A stretch of 7,498 nt of DNA from assembly GCF_946478835.1 (NCBI RefSeq), contig NZ_CAMLDV010000167.1, positions 1 through 7,498 of the forward strand, written 5' to 3'. Below the pieces are notes generated by a model that did not search any database, was not told the DNA's origin, and was given only the letters and a program-made list of their open reading frames with translations. Positions 1-7,498 of this stretch are shown here, piece after piece (within the stretch, counting starts at the first letter, position 1; each line of letters starts with the position of its first letter). The stretch comes from an uncultured Bdellovibrio sp. (lineage in GTDB: Bacteria; Bdellovibrionota; Bdellovibrionia; Bdellovibrionales; Bdellovibrionaceae). The position numbers and the translations under genes were made by a program.

Positions 1-120
1 TCGTCGGCGCCACGCCGCCGCGACCCACCCCACCGCGGTGGCGCCGACCGACCCCGGCAGCCGTGCCCACCCACGCGACTCCTAGAACAAAGCCCCTCGC
101 CAGCCCACCCGCTCTTCGCC
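1..120. other. GC-rich, C-skewed segment without a supported gene
   Basis: Bases 1-60 are about 83% GC and bases 61-120 about 70%, with far more C than G on the plus strand. Composition drops sharply to AT-rich sequence at about base 121. Plus frame 1 stays open from the edge to a TGA at 121-123 and plus frame 2 to a TAG at 83-85. Open frames are expected by chance at this GC content, and neither translation (Pro/Arg/Ala-rich) resembles a protein I know. It could be the end of a gene beyond the edge, a structured non-coding stretch, or foreign or misassembled sequence. Confidence 0.5.
3..48. repeat. 11-bp perfect inverted repeat
   Basis: Bases 3-13 (GTCGGCGCCAC) are the exact reverse complement of 38-48 (GTGGCGCCGAC), around a 24-base GC-rich loop. 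If C49 is bulged, two further pairs form with bases 1-2. The stem would be very stable. No T-run follows on the plus strand, so it is not a standard intrinsic terminator in that direction. The minus-strand continuation is outside the window. Confidence 0.6.
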
Positions 121-125
121 TGAAA

Positions 126-161
126 CAAAAAAACAAACCCCGCCTTTACAGACGGGGTTTG
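126..161 (-). terminator. Rho-independent terminator of the beta-barrel gene
   Basis: On the minus strand a perfect 9-bp stem, CAAACCCCG (161-153) with CGGGGTTTG (142-134), encloses a 10-base loop. It is followed directly by seven T residues (133-127), then G and three more T. It lies 41 bases after the TAA stop at 203-205. This is a textbook intrinsic terminator and supports minus-strand transcription of the gene upstream of it. Confidence 0.93.
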
Positions 162-202
162 CAACCACTGAGGAATTAATAAAACTACTTACTAATATTA
201 GA

Positions 203-1417
203 TTAGAAATTAACTCGTCCGACAAGCGACATTACATAGTACTGAAGCTTTTCGATCGGAGTTCCATACTGAGGTCCAGACATCCAAGTGTTTCCAGCGT
301 TCACACGGCTAGACAAATTCCACATATATCTGAAATCCAAACCCAAAGAGTACTTCGGAGAGAATTCCAAATCCGCACCGATGATCGTACCGATATCGAT
401 CGCGTGAGAGTTGGCTTTCGTGTCGTTGTAGTAACCGTAGGATTTGTTATCCCAAGAGAAACCTCTGTAAGAGTAAGACACCACACCACCGAATACAGGT
501 TTTACGATACCAGAGAACAATTGAACTTTCGCAGCCAATGAACCTGAATATTGTTGTACGTCGATAGAATCCGGAACGTAAACTCCGCCACCGCCATACG
601 CGTAACCATTTGTGTAGTAACCTTGTCCTTCAACTGTGTAGTTTGAGTACAAGAACGAACCTTCGACAACGATATTGTCGTACTTCGTACCGAACGCCAC
701 ACCGAGGGCATAATTTCCTTTTACTTGGCGAGTGTCTGGATAGTCACCGACTCCCAAGATACCTGCCACGTATTTAGTTTCAAGAGGAGCAACAGCCGCT
801 TCTTCTTCCGTTTTCATAGCCGCAGCTAATTCTTCACGAATGATGTCGCGTGTGTTCTCTTTAGGTTCTTCAACTTGTTGAACTTGCACAGGTTGTACTT
901 GTTGTACAGGCTGAGCATAAACAGGTTGTTGAACTTGTTGAGGTTGCTGTTGTTGTTGGTCTAATTGGTTGAATTTATCACCAAATAAAACCGAAGCTCT
1001 TTTCTTCTCGTCTTCCATACGAGATTGCTCGAGCTTTTCAACGATTCTTTGTTCAGTTTGCAACTCAGCATCTTGACGTGATCTGCGGATTTGTTCCGCG
1101 CGAGATTCCGTCAGTGGAGAAGCTTCAATAACAGTCGTTGGCTGTTTTTGAACTTGTGTTTGTTGCAACTGAGCATTGGACGTCGGTGTTGCCTGATTCA
1201 AAATATAAATAGGCTGACCGCTGACCGGTGCTGTGTTTGCAATACCCGCTTGAGCCTGAGGCTGAGCTTGTACTGGCGCGGCCGCTGCCGCAGGTGCCGC
1301 TTGCTGGCTTGAATACATTTGATCAAGCTCGGCATCGACATCACTTTCGATACTTTGAGCTAGCGCATAAGTGGGCGCAATACTCAAAGCCGCAAGTATA
1401 TAGAAATACTTTTTCAT
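203..1417 (-). CDS. Exported outer-membrane beta-barrel protein with Gln-rich N-terminal segment
   Basis: The 404-residue product has a Sec signal peptide (residues 1-20, cleavage after Ala-Leu-Ala). Residues 35-100 are low-complexity Ala/Gln/Pro. Residues 101-143 are charged and heptad-like, probably coiled coil. Residues 153-185 are Gln-rich, with a Q run and repeated VQQ/QPV units. The C-terminal ~190 residues (215-404) alternate hydrophobic and polar residues, are rich in Tyr and Gly, and end in Phe, as in outer-membrane barrels recognised by BAM. The barrel size suggests about eight strands of OmpA-like or OMP_b-brl type; this is inferred. An earlier in-frame TTG at 1444 is possible, but the ATG at 1417 has GAGGAG (1423-1428) five bases upstream and begins the signal peptide directly. 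The gene is monocistronic, with its own terminator. The N-terminal segment may span the periplasm or bind a partner. I do not recognise a named orthologue. Confidence 0.85.
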   Translation of the reverse strand: MKKYFYILAALSIAPTYALAQSIESDVDAELDQMYSSQQAAPAAAAAPVQAQPQAQAGIANTAPVSGQPIYILNQATPTSNAQLQQTQVQKQPTTVIEASPLTESRAEQIRRSRQDAELQTEQRIVEKLEQSRMEDEKKRASVLFGDKFNQLDQQQQQPQQVQQPVYAQPVQQVQPVQVQQVEEPKENTRDIIREELAAAMKTEEEAAVAPLETKYVAGILGVGDYPDTRQVKGNYALGVAFGTKYDNIVVEGSFLYSNYTVEGQGYYTNGYAYGGGGVYVPDSIDVQQYSGSLAAKVQLFSGIVKPVFGGVVSYSYRGFSWDNKSYGYYNDTKANSHAIDIGTIIGADLEFSPKYSLGLDFRYMWNLSSRVNAGNTWMSGPQYGTPIEKLQYYVMSLVGRVNF

Positions 1418-1694
1418 AGAGTCTCCTCGTGGTTCTGGTTTCAAAAACCTTTTTAAGTCACTTGGGCGTAAAGCAAGCCTGATGCCAACAGGGCCGAATT
1501 TCGTCCCCGGCGTCTAAGTTGTTGATATCAAAAGTAAGTCGCTGTCTGCCCCTTGAACGCGAGCCCCGGTCACTGACCACAAATGTGACAACTTACAAGA
1601 CGCTTTCTGAAATTCTTGCAAAGAGGAGTCATTTCGCCCCTGACTAGGGAAGGATTTGGTAAAACTACGCTCTATATATAAGGAGATGTCTCTC
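1418..1694. promoter_or_regulatory. Divergent intergenic region between the barrel gene and the protease gene
   Basis: These 277 bases must hold the promoters of both divergent genes. For the protease (plus), the best candidate I see is GTGACA (1585-1590), a 17-base spacer and TGAAAT (1608-1613), matching the sigma-70 consensus 5/6 and 4/6. This gives a leader of about 75 bases. TTGATATCAA (1522-1531) is a 10-bp perfect palindrome, and GGTCACTGACC (1568-1578) is a short dyad just upstream of that candidate -35. Either could be an operator, but such short dyads also occur by chance. I found no convincing promoter for the minus-strand gene. Confidence 0.35.
1680..1685 (+). promoter_or_regulatory. 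Ribosome binding site of the protease gene (decides the start)
   Basis: AAGGAG lies nine bases before the ATG at 1695. A second ATG follows at 1698. In-frame starts further upstream (TTG at 1656, ATG at 1686) lie before or directly against this site and would add a charged stretch ahead of the signal peptide. The site therefore favours 1695. Confidence 0.75.
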
Positions 1695-2588
1695 ATGATG
1701 TCGAAACTCCTCAGAGCCAGCGCACTCGTTCTTTCTCTTTCTACTCTGGCGGCATGTTCTTCTGGCGGCGGTGGCGGTGAAGACTTAAAAGTCGAACCAG
1801 CCAACTGCGAAATCAACGGTAAATCTTTTGGTATTGTTGGCGGCGAAGTTCTTGGAACCGGGAATGAGTTGAGTGCGAGCACGGTGATGGTTGTGCACGT
1901 CAATTATAAAGACGACGTCAGCATCTGCACGGGCACACTTATAGATAAAGACAAAGTCTTGACGGCGGCTCATTGCATTTCGGCTTTCGGCGGAAAGTCT
2001 GTGATTGCGTTTACTAATAATATTGATTGCGCGGCGAAAGCGAAAAATAGAACTCTTCGTCCTGTGGTAAAGGATACTTATCATAAGGACTATTCTTATT
2101 GGACGAAGTCTTTGGACAATGCCTCTTACGATCTTGCGATTTTAAAATTCAGCGGTGGCATTCCTGCGGGTTACAAAGTGCGCGAGCTTCCTTCTAAGGA
2201 TTTTGAGCCTGTTGCCAGCGACACCATCGTGATGTCAGGTTACGGCAATACGGCTGAGAAAAATGAAGACGCCGGTGTTCTGCGCTTTACAACGGCGACA
2301 GTGTCGCGTTTGGTGAAGGATTTCTATTTAGCATTGGTCGGCTCCACAGTTTCAATCAAGAATACTTGGATGCTTCAACAATATGACAATGGTGTTTGCA
2401 CAGGCGATTCTGGCGGACCTCTTTATGTTAGCACGGAAAAAGGTTTAACTTTGATCGGTGTGACATCGATGGGAGTTGATAACCGCGCGACGGATGAAAA
2501 GAATGTGCGCACTTGCCATGGTATGGCTCTTTTCACAGACCTCAGACCTCATCTTGATTGGATTCGCGGAAAAATGAATTCCCTTTAG
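1695..2588 (+). CDS. Trypsin-like serine protease (S1 family), lipoprotein
   Basis: The 297-residue product begins with a lipoprotein signal ending in the lipobox L18-A-A-C21, followed by an SSGGGGG linker, so it is probably lipidated and attached to a membrane on the periplasmic side or the surface. Residue +2 is Ser, which in E. coli would send it to the outer membrane. An S1 catalytic domain starts at IVGG (47-50). The triad is complete: His93 in TAAHC, Asp146 in YDLAIL and Ser239 in CTGDSGGP. C78/C94 and C235/C274 match the conserved 42-58 and 191-220 disulfides of chymotrypsin. The position equivalent to 189 at the base of the S1 pocket is Gly, not Asp, so cleavage after Lys/Arg is not expected. 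The residue before IVGG is also Gly, not basic, so trypsin-type activation is unlikely. C38 in the propeptide and C112 remain and could pair. Substrates are unknown; secreted S1 proteases are common in predatory bacteria. Confidence 0.92.
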   Translation: MMSKLLRASALVLSLSTLAACSSGGGGGEDLKVEPANCEINGKSFGIVGGEVLGTGNELSASTVMVVHVNYKDDVSICTGTLIDKDKVLTAAHCISAFGGKSVIAFTNNIDCAAKAKNRTLRPVVKDTYHKDYSYWTKSLDNASYDLAILKFSGGIPAGYKVRELPSKDFEPVASDTIVMSGYGNTAEKNEDAGVLRFTTATVSRLVKDFYLALVGSTVSIKNTWMLQQYDNGVCTGDSGGPLYVSTEKGLTLIGVTSMGVDNRATDEKNVRTCHGMALFTDLRPHLDWIRGKMNSL

Positions 2589-2595
2589 TGCTTAC

Positions 2596-2638
2596 AGGGT
2601 CCCGCAAGCTTGACAATATCCGCTGGGCCCTCACTTTT
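2596..2638 (+). terminator. Possible weak terminator after the protease gene
   Basis: AGGGTCC (2596-2602) pairs with GGGCCCT (2625-2631), seven pairs including one G-U. Two more pairs (2604-2605 with 2622-2623) follow after a mismatch. Only four T (2635-2638) come after the stem, so termination is probably partial. A TTGACA (2610-2615) sits in the loop, with no good -10 at the right distance. Confidence 0.35.
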
Positions 2639-2643
2639 GAGAA

Positions 2644-2802
2644 GTGAAAGCAAAAAAGATCCTCTTTTATACTTTGCTACCTCTCTTTGCCCTGCTCGCT
2701 ATGGTGGGTGTTCCGCCGCCTGTAATGTTCAATGAGCAAAAAAAAGATAAGCCCGCTCAGTCTGAAAATTTGAAAGAAGAAAAAGAAGAGGAAAAGAAAT
2801 AA
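2644..2802 (+). CDS. Small membrane or exported protein, 52 residues, unknown function
   Basis: This frame starts at GTG 2644, two codons after an in-frame TGA, and stops at TAA 2800-2802. The start MKAKK is basic, a hydrophobic stretch follows (residues 6-23, rich in Leu, Phe and Ala), then PPP at 24-26, and a highly charged Lys/Glu tail fills residues 31-52. This fits a signal anchor or a signal peptide with a short soluble tail. The organisation (basic, hydrophobic, charged) is unlikely in random sequence. Support for the start is weak: only TGAGAA lies upstream, directly against the GTG. It follows the protease gene by 55 bases on the same strand and may be reached by read-through. Its stop is one base from the CCA end of the convergent tRNA. 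An eight-A run at codons 31-34 could allow slippage. I recognise no family. Confidence 0.55.
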   Translation: MKAKKILFYTLLPLFALLAMVGVPPPVMFNEQKKDKPAQSENLKEEKEEEKK

Positions 2803-2803
2803 T

Positions 2804-2889
2804 TGGTGCGGGTGGAGGGACTTGAACCCCCACGGACGTGAATCCAAGAGATTTTGAGTCTCTCGTGGCTACCATTACACCACACCCGC
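2804..2889 (-). tRNA. tRNA-Leu (anticodon CAA)
   Basis: On the minus strand this is an 86-base class II tRNA including an encoded CCA (2806-2804). The acceptor stem is GCGGGTG/CACCCGC with discriminator A. The D arm is GTG/CAC with the GG pair in its loop. The anticodon stem is AGAGA/TCTCT with loop CTCAAAA, giving anticodon CAA at 2856-2854, which reads UUG. A 15-base variable region contains a short stem (GGAT/GTCC with one G-U pair), as expected for leucine. The T arm is GGGGG-TTCAAGT-CCCTC. All helices pair and there is no intron. I see no clear intrinsic terminator downstream; the next stretch on this strand is pyrimidine-rich and antisense to the small ORF at 2644-2802. Confidence 0.97.
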
Positions 2890-2902
2890 GCGTGAGGGAT
2901 AT

Positions 2903-2931
2903 TTTGTAAATAAAAGTGCCCTAATACTCAA
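2903..2931 (-). promoter_or_regulatory. Candidate sigma-70 promoter of tRNA-Leu
   Basis: On the minus strand, TTGAGT (2931-2926) is followed by a 17-base spacer and TACAAA (2908-2903), each matching 4 of 6 consensus bases. The predicted start is near 2896, seven bases before the mature 5' end. A C-rich discriminator (CCCTC) follows, which would fit stringent control of a stable RNA promoter. Confidence 0.5.
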
Positions 2932-3023
2932 GCTCTTTTTTCTAAAAAGTGCTTACGGACGCTAAAAACGCAGTGTTTCAATGGCTCCTGCATGCTTTGT
3001 AAGCAAATTTTCAATTCTCGCAT
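2928..3023 (-). CDS. Possible 31-residue basic small ORF (speculative)
   Basis: On the minus strand an ATG at 3023 (with an in-frame GTG directly before it at 3026) opens 31 codons and stops at TGA 2930-2928. AGGAG (3037-3033) lies six bases before the GTG or nine before the ATG. The peptide is basic, with Lys/Arg clustered at the end and two Cys, and has no signal peptide or recognisable domain. It sits directly after the four-gene operon on the same strand, and its stop overlaps the candidate -35 of the tRNA promoter. The only support is the ribosome binding site and the position, so it may be chance. No strong terminator for the operon is visible here; a 5-bp CAGTG/CACTG pairing before CGTTTTT (near 2965-2971) is the best I see. 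Confidence 0.22.
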   Translation of the reverse strand: MRELKICLQSMQEPLKHCVFSVRKHFLEKRA

Positions 3024-3041
3024 CACTGACCACTCCTCAAA

Positions 3042-3506
3042 TTAAATATTGGACCATACGGAACAGGCAATATCGCTTAACTGAATTTGATCTGTCGCTG
3101 AGTGACCGGGTCCCTTCCAAACTCTTAAGAAGTTATTTTTAATGGGTTGGGTTTTTCCATCTTCGATCACGGATTTTTGATCCATGTCGACGAAGTTCGG
3201 TCCGTTGTATTTAATTGAAATGGGGAATTCTTTTTCTGCGTAGGCGGCTAACCCCACAATCGCTGAATTGTTGGCTGGTTCGTCGTATTCGAAGAACTGC
3301 GTGATCTCTTCTTTGGTGAAACGGTAGCCGAATTTGTTTTCTTCGTTTTCGAAAATCACTTCGCCGCTTTCTGGAGTTCCTGTAGCTCCTGTCGTATTGA
3401 TGTGAACTGTGACCCAGGTGTTGTCACTTGCGCGACCTGTGCATTCAGAGACCGCGAAGGCTTTTGCTGAACAAATCAAACTTGCTAATAGAAAAAAATA
3501 TTTCAC
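3042..3506 (-). CDS. Small exported protein of unknown function, last gene of the operon
   Basis: The 154-residue product has a clear Sec signal peptide (1-18, ending Ala-Lys-Ala-Phe-Ala). The mature part is about 136 residues, acidic to neutral, and probably beta-rich given its alternating hydrophobic pattern. It has only two cysteines, C22 near the mature N-terminus and C148 near the C-terminus, which could close the fold with one disulfide. A single-domain periplasmic or secreted protein is likely. The start is GTG at 3506, supported by AGGAG (3517-3513) six bases upstream. The TAG stop of the preceding gene lies inside that Shine-Dalgarno (TAGGAG), so translation is probably coupled. The gap to the preceding gene is 9 bp. 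I recognise no family. Confidence 0.82.
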   Translation of the reverse strand: MKYFFLLASLICSAKAFAVSECTGRASDNTWVTVHINTTGATGTPESGEVIFENEENKFGYRFTKEEITQFFEYDEPANNSAIVGLAAYAEKEFPISIKYNGPNFVDMDQKSVIEDGKTQPIKNNFLRVWKGPGHSATDQIQLSDIACSVWSNI

Positions 3507-3515
3507 AACAAACTC

Positions 3516-4361
3516 CTAATTTCTTAAAAACCAAAAAACGAGTTCCACTCCGCCGATCGTCATCTTTCCAGAGACTTGGCAGACACCTTTTTCAGGAAGC
3601 AGACAGGCTCCCCATTCAGGTTCAAATATCATTTCGCCTTTCACGGTTTTCGCTTTGTCAAAAACCGTGATTTCGTATTTATGAAAAAGACCGCGGGCAT
3701 TGCTTGATGGCGGTGTCACGCCCGTCTGTTTAACGATTTGCACTTCTCGGTAAGAGTCTTTGCAGTCTCCCGTAGATTCCATCACTAAAGTTTCTGCCGA
3801 AAGTTTGACATCCAGTTTTCCCGGCTGAATTGTGCAGCCCTCGGGCGCGAAACTGAGTTGCGCTTTGACGTAGTTTGCAGGGTTCACCGGATTCCACCAA
3901 ATGCTGGGGCTGTAGTTACTTATGTTGAGCAACTCAATTAAATGTTCGGAGTGAACAAAGTTTGTATCATCGACTCCGCTGATCCAAAGATATTCGTGCA
4001 AAACAAGGCGCAGGCGTGCTTTGGTTTCTGTGGATCGACGAAGATCGGTCCAGCGTGAGCGATTGACTTTAATAAGACGTTTTGTCGGATAGTAGTTTAC
4101 GGCGTCTCGTTCAAATCCGTCGAGCATCACATGATCTTCGGAAACGACTTCCGTTGTCATAATGGCTGCTCTTAAGTTTGTGGTATCGAAAACGGGTTTG
4201 TTATTTTCAAACAGCAGCTCAAGCCTTTGCAAAATATCTCGGCCGCTGAGAATAAATTCTGAGGCGACGGTGTCACCGGCATTTCCGTGGTCCCATCCTG
4301 CAGCAGCGGCGTGGACTGCGGAGCTTAAAAAGGTCATGATGACGATGAACCAAAACCTCAT
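3516..4361 (-). CDS. Exported protein with HExxWxxGxxD motif, unknown function
   Basis: The 281-residue product has a Sec signal peptide (1-18, Val-His-Ala before the cleavage site). The N-terminal part of the mature protein (about 22-150) is mostly helical in character and holds H122-E-Y-L-W126-I-S-G129-V-D-D132, with H137 and H140 shortly after. This matches the metzincin zinc motif HExxHxxGxxD except that the second His is Trp, so it may be a degenerate or unrelated site. The second part (about 160-281) looks beta-rich and has four cysteines (C176, C200, C253, C261), enough for two disulfides. The frame is open much further upstream, to 4655, but the ATG at 4361 begins the signal peptide, has AGGAG (4374-4370) eight bases before it, and overlaps the stop of the preceding gene as ATGA. 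Periplasmic or secreted; no enzyme activity can be claimed. Confidence 0.85.
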   Translation of the reverse strand: MRFWFIVIMTFLSSAVHAAAAGWDHGNAGDTVASEFILSGRDILQRLELLFENNKPVFDTTNLRAAIMTTEVVSEDHVMLDGFERDAVNYYPTKRLIKVNRSRWTDLRRSTETKARLRLVLHEYLWISGVDDTNFVHSEHLIELLNISNYSPSIWWNPVNPANYVKAQLSFAPEGCTIQPGKLDVKLSAETLVMESTGDCKDSYREVQIVKQTGVTPPSSNARGLFHKYEITVFDKAKTVKGEMIFEPEWGACLLPEKGVCQVSGKMTIGGVELVFWFLRN

Positions 4362-5104
4362 GATTTTTTCTCCTGTGAAAGAGGAAAAAGTTGAATGTTC
4401 AAACGATAGACGGCGTCTCTTTTTCCGTCTTCTAAGTACGTAGACAAGCGACGGCGAAAATCTTGGATCATCACCTTGGCTTCCGGCAAACGCGCTTTGG
4501 AAATCGCCATGGTGATACCACTGATATCTCGGGTCTCCACAGGATCGGCTTCTAAAGAGTGCAGAGCCTTTGAGATGTATTGTCGATGCCCTTCTCTTAA
4601 AGCCGCAGAGGGAATTTGCGATGGCGTTGCCATGTTTTTTCCCGTGAGCTGCCAAAGACCATTTTTATTTTCGATCAAATCCAACTTTTCTAAACGGACC
4701 AAACACTCTGAAACGATTCCAAAGGGAATATTTAATCGCTCTGAAATATTTCGTTCTTGCCCTTTGAAGTCTTTAATCTCAAGCAACGCTAAAATTGCAA
4801 AATGTTGCCAAGATGAAATCGCTTCGGCACTTTCCATTGCAAGCTCACTGTAATTAGGAACAGCTTCATTTTCTTCTTTCACGAAGGTGCTCATAATTAA
4901 AGCCTGGGCTTCAACGGGGTTTGTGATATTTAAACCCTCGACGATTTTTTGCGCCGTTTTGATTGTGAGCGGACGCTTGCCTTTAAGAATCGCTGACACC
5001 GTGGAAGAATCCATTCCCAGCGAGCGGGAAAAAGCTCGCAGGGAATAGGAAGAATTCTTCCGGCAGCGTTCAGCAAAGGTGCGTTTCATGTGCTCAATCA
5101 ACAT
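4358..5104 (-). CDS. TIGR02147 family HTH protein (DUF4423), putative transcriptional regulator
   Basis: The 248-residue protein has no signal peptide and should be cytoplasmic. Residues 20-60 form an XRE-like helix-turn-helix (SYSLRAFSRSLGMDSSTVS, then ILKGKRPLT). The C-terminal DUF4423 region carries the family's hallmark stretches: ISSWQHFAIL (96-105), a winged-helix-like segment (116-156), the HRQYISKAL block (173-181), the DISGITMAIS block (193-202) and YRLNIQLFPL (233-242). TIGR02147 was named for a Fibrobacter paralogue family and, as I recall, is abundant in Bdellovibrio. Its members are presumed DNA-binding, but targets are mostly unknown. At 248 residues it is slightly short at the N-terminus for the family. 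The ATG at 5104 follows the macroglobulin stop by 8 bp, and TAGGTG containing that stop serves as ribosome binding site. It probably autoregulates or regulates this operon; that is inference. Confidence 0.93.
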   Translation of the reverse strand: MLIEHMKRTFAERCRKNSSYSLRAFSRSLGMDSSTVSAILKGKRPLTIKTAQKIVEGLNITNPVEAQALIMSTFVKEENEAVPNYSELAMESAEAISSWQHFAILALLEIKDFKGQERNISERLNIPFGIVSECLVRLEKLDLIENKNGLWQLTGKNMATPSQIPSAALREGHRQYISKALHSLEADPVETRDISGITMAISKARLPEAKVMIQDFRRRLSTYLEDGKRDAVYRLNIQLFPLSQEKKS

Positions 5105-5115
5105 GCCTTCACCTA
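5102..5115 (-). promoter_or_regulatory. Stop-in-Shine-Dalgarno junction, macroglobulin to TIGR02147
   Basis: The minus strand reads TAGGTGAAGGCATG. The TAG stop of the macroglobulin gene forms the first part of the Shine-Dalgarno TAGGTG, five bases before the ATG of the next gene. A terminating ribosome would sit on the initiation region, so coupled translation is expected. Confidence 0.6.
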
Positions 5116-7498
5116 TTTCACGGTCATAGCCGCATTCGGCGTTTCACCAAAAATACTTGGCGTGTACAGACCTTCTGCGCGTGTTGGTGGAAGTTTGAAC
5201 GTGCCCGGATTGTTGAGCTGATATTGATACTTCACGGTTGTGCTACCTGAAGACAGCTGTTCGAAATAGAACTTATATCCCGAATAACTTTTTTGGCCCG
5301 AGCTGTAGTAACCATAAGCTTCACTTAGAATATTACTTCCGGCAGGAATAGGATCTTGCATCGCTATATTGTTCACATGACCGCTAGAGTGAATTTTTAA
5401 AGTCACTTCGATCACGTCACCCGCTTGATAGCCAGAGTCTCTTGTGATGTTATGGATTTCCTTTTCGATTGAAAGTCCCTGACCGCGCGGAGCCGTCAAT
5501 GGCACCGCAGTCAAGCCTTGAATACCAACCCACGGTTTTCCCTCCCCGGCGTGAGTGATTTGCACTGTGGCTTTTGTTTGAGTCCATGGAGTTTTCATCT
5601 CGACTCCGCTTGTGCGACTCCAATCCACGGAACCATGTGCTTGCTGTTCAGGAATCGAAATCACCGAGAAGCCTGTCACCGTTTCTGCCTCATAGGCTTT
5701 AGCAAACACTTTAAGACCTTGCGCGACTGACATCATAGTTGATGTGTTATACCAAGCATTCGTGTTCAGATTAACAAGCCCGACAGAGAGACTTCTTGCT
5801 GCGTTGCTATCTCCGTGCAAACGCGCATGTCCCAACAAAAGGTTGGCGGTCTCTGTGGTTTCATCCGAATAGAACCAACCGTAGCTAGGAGCGCCTTTTA
5901 ATTGCGCCGTATTTCCTGTGTAAATCAAACGCGAAGGTCCCATCAGTTGAATGTAGAATGGTGAACTTAATGCCATCTCTGGTGTGGCAAAAACCTGCAA
6001 GAGCCACACGTTCACTAGATCACTGTTTGTCCACTTATCAACCGTTGGGCCATAGACCGCAGGATTTCGTTGAAGCTCCGTTGCGATCGTCACACTCACG
6101 GCTTTTGCAGAAGCTTGAAGGTTCTGATCTTTAAAGGCGAAAGCACTTCTGCCCATCACGGACTGCGCACGCACCCAATCCAGAGGTTCTTTACCGACGT
6201 ATACGGGGTTTACGGATTTTGTAAGAACTTGGGAAACAGCGCCTTTGAGTTTTTCGCTTAAAGCCGTTGGAACATATTTTAAAGCCCATGGTTCCTCTTG
6301 AAGAGCATTGAGAATATTCGCCGTCAGCCACACACTTCCGCGACGGGCTTGCGGATAATATTTTACAAAACCGTTTAAGTCTGTGTAGCCAAGCAACATG
6401 TTCAGAACTTTTTTGAGTTCTTCGGGTTTTGCCTCGGAACTATTCAGCAAGGCTTTATAGAATTGAGACTCGATAAAGAAATCTGCAAAAATATCTTGCG
6501 AGACACGTTCTTGAATTTGTTTAAGAGCGCCGTTCACAAGACTGCTCGACAAAGAAATTCGGATCTCGCCTTTTTGCGGAAGAGCGGTGGCTTCTTTGTG
6601 AAGTTCTTGAATGAAACTGTCATTGTCCATTTGCACGATAAAAGAATTATGTATCGCAAGAGGAACGGATGGCAAAATCACTTGAGCCTCCGGCTCCATG
6701 CTGTCCACGAGGTTTCCGTTTTCATCGTAAACGTTCACCACGTATTCGATGCGACCTGCATCCTCAGAAATCGCGATGTCACCGACGTCCACAGTCTCTG
6801 AAGCGGAAGGCTTGATCTCGGTTTGTTTCGTGAGTGTCTTACGGGCGATCTCTTTGCCGTTGCTGTCCTTAACAATCACTTCCACTTCTGTCTTGTATTT
6901 AACTGCTTTGGCACCGTTGTTTTGCACAGTGATTTTTACGGGATATGTGTCACCGTGATGGGCTACGGACGGAATATTGGAATAAGCTTGCGTGTCTTTT
7001 TCAGTTAAATATGTTGCTTCGCCCGTTCCAAATTTTTGTGAAGAATCCGTGGCAATCGCGAAAACTTTAAAGCGCGTGAGGCTGTCATTCGTTGCAAATG
7101 AGAACTTGGCGACACCATTGACAACGGGAATTCCTGGTTGGAAAGCGACAAGTGCGTTAAACAATCTTCTTTTGAAATCAGCCTTGGCACTTCCGTCACC
7201 ACCTTCATCCCCGCCTTTACGAGAATTTTCACTTGGAATATCGGCGTTTTCGTTCGACGTCACCGTCTCGATTTTTTCAAGCGGCGTCACTGTTTCAACG
7301 CCGTGACCGCGAAGCTGCATCAAAGCATCCAGAATTTTGTAAGTATCGTTGGCCTTGAGTTCTAAAATCTTTTCTTCAATCGCAACAAGAGTCACTGTGC
7401 CATTTCCTAAAGATCCTTCTTGCGCCTTAACTACCACTTGGCCGTCAACAGCTTCACCAGGTTCATATTTTTCTTTGTTCAACTTTACCGTCACTTTG
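5113..7498 (-). CDS. Alpha-2-macroglobulin family protein, thioester-less; 5' end outside the window
   Basis: The visible 794 residues are the C-terminal part of a larger protein; the frame is open through the window edge, and the GTG at 7494 is an internal Val. Positions below count that Val as 1. The KYEPGE stretch (9-14) and the following strands fit the MG/bait-region domain A2M_N_2, with a Gly/Asp/Ser linker at 83-105. F113-W-like strands, then ATNDSLTRFKVFAIATD (134-150) and FGTGEA (155-160), fit the A2M domain. Residues 320-620 are the alpha-helical TED-like domain. The end DPIPAGS (714-720) to PPTRAEGLYTPSIFGE (769-784) is the typical bacterial C-terminus. Where a CxEQ thioester is expected (about 330-345) the sequence is SQDIFADFFIES, and the visible part has no cysteine. 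It therefore belongs with YfaS-like members without a thioester. Bacterial macroglobulins are envelope protease traps; without the thioester, only conformational trapping or another role remains. The signal peptide and any lipobox are outside the window. No pbpC is visible nearby. Confidence 0.93.
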   Translation of the reverse strand, partial: KVTVKLNKEKYEPGEAVDGQVVVKAQEGSLGNGTVTLVAIEEKILELKANDTYKILDALMQLRGHGVETVTPLEKIETVTSNENADIPSENSRKGGDEGGDGSAKADFKRRLFNALVAFQPGIPVVNGVAKFSFATNDSLTRFKVFAIATDSSQKFGTGEATYLTEKDTQAYSNIPSVAHHGDTYPVKITVQNNGAKAVKYKTEVEVIVKDSNGKEIARKTLTKQTEIKPSASETVDVGDIAISEDAGRIEYVVNVYDENGNLVDSMEPEAQVILPSVPLAIHNSFIVQMDNDSFIQELHKEATALPQKGEIRISLSSSLVNGALKQIQERVSQDIFADFFIESQFYKALLNSSEAKPEELKKVLNMLLGYTDLNGFVKYYPQARRGSVWLTANILNALQEEPWALKYVPTALSEKLKGAVSQVLTKSVNPVYVGKEPLDWVRAQSVMGRSAFAFKDQNLQASAKAVSVTIATELQRNPAVYGPTVDKWTNSDLVNVWLLQVFATPEMALSSPFYIQLMGPSRLIYTGNTAQLKGAPSYGWFYSDETTETANLLLGHARLHGDSNAARSLSVGLVNLNTNAWYNTSTMMSVAQGLKVFAKAYEAETVTGFSVISIPEQQAHGSVDWSRTSGVEMKTPWTQTKATVQITHAGEGKPWVGIQGLTAVPLTAPRGQGLSIEKEIHNITRDSGYQAGDVIEVTLKIHSSGHVNNIAMQDPIPAGSNILSEAYGYYSSGQKSYSGYKFYFEQLSSGSTTVKYQYQLNNPGTFKLPPTRAEGLYTPSIFGETPNAAMTVK

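Follow-up and report, generated by a model that had tools for sequence, protein, structure and literature searches.

We analysed a stretch of 7,498 nucleotides from an uncultured Bdellovibrio sp. (contig NZ_CAMLDV010000167.1, positions 1 to 7,498), called here the window. It carries four tightly packed minus-strand genes, namely the end of a macroglobulin (A2M) gene, a regulator gene of the TIGR02147 family, and genes 3 and 4, which encode two exported proteins:

5113..7498, minus strand: C-terminal 794 amino acids of a thioester-less A2M (end of the bait region, A2M domain, TED-like part, bMG10)
4358..5104, minus strand: TIGR02147-family regulator of 248 amino acids, XRE-type helix-turn-helix (HTH) plus DUF4423, with 514 homologues
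3516..4361, minus strand: gene 3, signal peptide, zincin-like N-domain and C-terminal beta domain, ATG at 4361
3042..3506, minus strand: gene 4, exported beta-barrel of 154 amino acids, GTG start

The A2M frame (5113-7497) is open at the window edge, and the remainder of the gene lies beyond it. Gene 3 and the regulator overlap by 4 bp; the gaps between the four genes of the window are 8, -4 and 9 bp, and the related genome G114 differs by one base in the last (8, -4 and 10 bp). AGGTGA or AGGAG-like ribosome sites precede genes 2-4. The close packing and good ribosome binding sites described in the first-pass annotation were thus reproduced, with every frame where it had been placed. No promoter- or terminator-like site above chance was found in positions 2600-5400. 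All four genes are under purifying selection: the ratio of nonsynonymous to synonymous substitution between the window and G114 is 0.045 for A2M, 0.021 for the regulator, 0.050 for gene 3 and 0.032 for gene 4.

The window part of the A2M matches PF00207 and bMG10 (PF17973) and is identical at 788 of 794 positions to a protein of 1972 residues (P0212). The full-length relative in G114, 1994 residues long, has PF00207, PF07703, PF11974 and PF17973 all above cut-off, and is, like other bacterial A2Ms, a large exported protein with A2M and bMG domains. The thioester motif CxEQ is absent from it. Among the matches listed, drawn from the best 120 of 180 homologues, CxEQ occurs after residue 900 in none of the 58 window-type A2Ms vs 56 of the 62 others; the window-type residues aligned with the thioester position read FADFFIES or similar. 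The earlier description of the macroglobulin as thioester-less therefore holds for the full-length G114 protein and for all 58 window-type A2Ms. In a FastTree phylogeny of 53 sequences, midpoint-rooted and carrying no support values, the window-type clade lies beside long, mostly thioester-bearing A2Ms, and nearer to these than to the yfaS piece.

Our survey of 368 genomes of the phylum found window-type A2Ms in six (G114, G002, G299, G195, G123 and G099), and in 6/6 the A2M adjoins pbpC. The two genes are divergent in five, with pbpC partial at the contig end in G195, while in G123 pbpC is co-directional and upstream. The divergent neighbour in G114, of 714 amino acids, has Transgly and Transpeptidase domains above cut-off, and its BiPBP_C match falls just short (24.3 vs 26.8 bits). 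We infer from these relatives that pbpC probably lies beside the A2M in the window's own genome too; the first-pass annotation saw none because the window is cut inside the A2M gene. G114 also has a second A2M, with thioester, followed by its own pbpC (L060), and a second, divergent TIGR02147-type gene lies two genes from the pbpC first described (L039 312-1175, plus strand).

Passages of one paper (PMC5764988) describe thioester A2Ms as co-expressed with PBP1c and thioester-less ones as often belonging to a six-gene mag operon, whose thioester-less A2M, MagD, traps a protease. The window type resembles Type I (E. coli yfhM-pbpC) in that its A2M adjoins pbpC, is periplasmic and has the MG3/BRD/A2M/MG10 domains. 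It differs in lacking the CxEQ thioester (58/58), in its mostly divergent pbpC (5/6), which in yfhM-pbpC is co-directional behind A2M, and in the regulator and exported proteins added at some loci. The missing thioester is shared with Type II (the MagD mag operon of P. aeruginosa and yfaS of E. coli); however, the neighbour here is pbpC, and no gene listed next to the six A2Ms of the window type was assigned to magABCEF, although mag profiles were not searched. Since CxEQ is found in 0/58 and yet pbpC is adjacent, window-type A2Ms break the published two-type split, and by sequence and neighbourhood their locus fits neither type.

The full order A2M-regulator-gene 3-gene 4 is present in G114. 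G002 has A2M and regulator followed by the N-domain of gene 3 fused to the gene 4 domain, on two contigs, and the A2M-regulator spacing is 7-8 bp in both genomes. The trio of regulator, gene 3 and gene 4 occurs without A2M alongside in G179, G213, G153 and G120, and G001 has regulator and gene 3 only, with a contig that ends inside gene 3 and a split regulator frame. Conversely, A2M and pbpC occur without the trio in G299, G195, G123 and G099, where genome searches for gene 3 gave no match. These are thus two modules that have been joined and not a single fixed operon.

How often they meet was estimated by equal size of the longest contig between an A2M cluster and a regulator or gene 3 cluster, which shows co-occurrence, not adjacency. 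By this test at least 30 of 58 window-type A2M clusters co-occur with a regulator or gene 3 cluster (G114 itself was missed): 29/50 at 50% identity or more, 1/2 at 45-50% and 0/6 below 45%. Counted from the other side, on contigs of at least 8 kb among the best 120 of 514 hits, the regulators sharing a contig with A2M are 6/10 at 75% identity or more, 16/29 at 62-75% and 3/27 at 50-62%. Joint loci span about 50-92% A2M identity. The link as read from these genomes is modular and not universal. The first-pass annotation had reasoned that genes scattered in relatives would make the association accidental, and the comparison came out halfway, with the joint order in G114 and G002 and each module alone elsewhere. 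Its suggestion of a new neighbourhood agrees with the literature found, which holds no description of one. The arrangement does exist, is conserved in part and has no description among the papers found; it is a variant of the A2M-PBP1C loci.

The regulator matches DUF4423 (PF14394) and HTH_3 and scores 130.7 bits against TIGR02147 (cut-off 50), which makes it a full family member, as first annotated. The intergenic regions of G114, G002, G179, G213 and G120 suggested a palindrome, TTTGCCGC-N5-GCGGCAAA, which is present with at most two mismatches in 7/7 regulator loci. In the five A2M-free loci its mismatches are two (L040), two (L041), none (L042), none (L043) and two (L044). In 5/5 of them its centre is 50-54 bp upstream of the regulator ATG, and GCGGCA, a third half-site, is found upstream of the palindrome. 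L042 and L044 (G153 and G001) were not used in writing the pattern, and both carry it. In both A2M loci with a regulator the palindrome lies between the A2M and pbpC starts (L039 with two mismatches, L079 with one). With the same tolerance it was found in 0/4 A2M/pbpC loci without regulator and in 0/11 thioester-A2M loci scanned.

A shuffled control gave three sites in 1.88 Mb. The genome-wide count is ordinary (39 in 14 genomes vs 35 for the reversed control), and the sole two perfect copies in these 14 genomes lie at regulator loci. G114, G120 and G213 hold 28, 32 and 39 TIGR02147 matches, of which 28, 30 and 30 loci were examined (88 loci, 84 distinct genes). The palindrome occurs with at most two mismatches in two of the 88 (L127 and L162), both trio loci, so the paralogous regulators do not share it. 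Taken together, its placement makes the palindrome the probable operator of the regulator. Weaker palindromes, with three mismatches, lie farther upstream of the trio in three genomes (L040 11886, L041 12210, L043 9844).

Genes 3 and 4, described at first as exported proteins of unknown function, match no Pfam or curated NCBIfam family. A signal-peptide-like stretch (AF2 helix 2-19) opens gene 3, whose N-domain covers about residues 21-147, with the motif HEYLWISGVDD at 122-132. Trp stands in place of the second His of HExxH (HEYLW). His122, Glu123 and Asp132 are invariant in 53/53 aligned sequences. The best VIA matches of the N-domain are metallopeptidases, with middling fold matches, and a zincin-like domain speaks for the protease-control theme of the first-pass annotation. 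Gene 3 matches occur in 78 of 290 phylum genomes, in most as the N-domain alone. Gene 4 has conserved Cys22 and Cys148, and fusion of the gene 3 N-domain to a gene 4 domain is found in 20 relatives (P0070-P0089).

Partners of this kind are frequent behind TIGR02147 genes. An exported protein with a GNGG...HE motif, identified with a permissive regular expression and a signal-peptide rule written by hand, lies directly downstream of 26 of the 84 TIGR02147 genes, vs 0/86 non-TIGR control genes after removal of two TIGR genes caught among them. A set of 41 distinct N-domain genes, made up of best hits and chosen regions and not a random sample, contains no HExxH; a TIGR02147 gene lies directly upstream on the same strand in 31, at a gap of -46 to +19 bp, most commonly -4, elsewhere in the locus in nine and nowhere in one. 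Many TIGR02147 partners are of a sister type (HEIIYR), which aligns with gene 3 in profile comparison (probability 94%, E 1.3e-7, 48 columns). HExxH is intact in six of the 28 exported partners listed, and the gene 3 profile aligns HEYLWxxGVDD column by column to HEYSHLIGFNE/HEYSHLIGFDE of two G213 partners. We therefore take gene 3 most plausibly to be a degenerate member of a family of exported, zincin-like proteins that accompanies TIGR02147 regulators. We did not find this regular pairing of the TIGR02147/DUF4423 family in the literature. Three exported partners (L096, L126 and L160) have an intact HE[FM]GHHxGxY motif and may represent a candidate active zinc peptidase family; L126 and L160 have no Pfam match above cut-off, and L096 likewise, as a member of A3.

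Pairs of an HTH regulator and a zincin are known from ImmR/ImmA, DdrO/IrrE and BlaI/BlaR1. The present pairs are similar in that an XRE-type regulator is followed by a zincin-like protein, often with a 4-bp overlap. In contrast to the cytoplasmic protease of ImmR/ImmA-type pairs, the partner here carries a signal peptide and is located outside the cytoplasm. Because gene 3 is exported and without the second zinc His, it is unlikely to cleave the regulator directly.

Our best reading is that an A2M-PBP1C envelope-protection unit may have been captured by a TIGR02147/pseudo-zincin module, and we put the probability that the operon works as such a unit at about one half. The regulator would bind the palindrome in the divergent A2M/pbpC region and thereby control A2M, genes 3 and 4 and its own gene as one transcript, perhaps together with pbpC on the other side. 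By analogy with thioester-less MagD, the A2M may trap proteases non-covalently in the periplasm, while PBP1C would repair peptidoglycan. The gene 3/gene 4 pair, without the usual zinc binding, might work by binding, as a pseudo-peptidase together with a small barrel; it could recognise proteases or peptides, or stabilise the A2M. A predator, with its envelope exposed both to its own hydrolases and to those of its prey, is the likely context. Of the earlier idea of one transcription unit under a dedicated regulator, the kept spacing (in G114, and for A2M-regulator-gene 3 in G002) and the palindrome common to the loci speak for it, and the fixed four-gene operon does not stand. Several points weigh against the capture of a protection unit: the canonical A2M loci of trio genomes lack the palindrome, the bait-region candidate of the window-type A2M is conserved, and G213 and G120 have the trio, yet no A2M relative was detected in them.

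The last point would suit a cassette of regulator, gene 3 and gene 4 that was inserted behind A2M-pbpC and is transcribed by read-through from the promoter of that pair, the two modules having no function in common. Each module does exist alone (the trio or regulator-gene 3 in five genomes, A2M-pbpC in four). However, joint loci are common over a wide range of A2M identity, and both the 7-8 bp spacing and the palindrome at the A2M/pbpC promoter region are kept in G114 and G002, so we regard mere adjacency as unlikely. The palindrome might also be a hairpin, acting as a transcription terminator or attenuator and leaving A2M outside the regulator's control; its inverted repeat is rich in GC with a loop of 5 nucleotides, and in the A2M-free loci it follows a same-strand upstream gene. 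But at other loci it sits between divergent genes, the stem is not followed by a T-run, and the half-site letters and the third half-site are kept, which makes the hairpin very improbable.

Gene 3 could, moreover, still be an active metallopeptidase with unusual ligands (His122, Asp132 and others), which the A2M restrains along with similar enzymes and whose products the regulator senses. Its invariant residues and the relatives behind other TIGR02147 genes that keep HExxH favour activity, whereas the Trp at the second His, the absence of HExxH from all N-domain genes of the set and the middling folds make it distinctly unlikely.

If the capture of an A2M-PBP1C unit is true, this defence can drop the thioester and gain a dedicated regulator, contrary to the published two-type scheme. 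It would also give a handle, through a set of exported proteins as likely partners and through one probable operator, on a large and almost unstudied regulator family (28-39 matches per predator genome in three genomes), and a predator living in the periplasm of other cells is a sensible place to seek protease control. More tentatively, and somewhat short of an even chance, the TIGR02147/DUF4423 regulators of Bdellovibrionota may form a lineage-wide two-gene system of a cytoplasmic HTH regulator and an exported zincin-like protein, with HExxH mostly broken and sometimes intact. Each pair would sense, or act against, peptides or proteases in the periplasm or outside the cell; the version in the window would have recruited a thioester-less A2M/PBP1C defence by way of an operator of its own. 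This broader pattern may prove more interesting than the A2M locus variant. An excerpt of PMC12546842 reports that Bd3700, a protein of the DUF4423 family, is raised during growth in prey.

Other features of the window lie behind the operon. A tRNA-Leu(caa) gene (2804-2889, minus strand) follows it directly, and an identical tRNA gene lies behind gene 4 in G114 (L039). An exported Gln-rich protein (203-1444, minus strand) with a weak outer-membrane beta-barrel match is 99% identical in G114, and its synonymous divergence of 0.11 is far below the 0.66-0.95 of the operon genes. Between these two, convergent with the operon, lies a gene for a trypsin-family serine protease (1656-2588, plus strand) whose start is of an exported, lipobox-like type (LAACSS) and which has the GDSGGP motif; the neighbour is also kept in G114, at 96% identity, and the position of a putative secreted protease beside a putative protease trap is suggestive.
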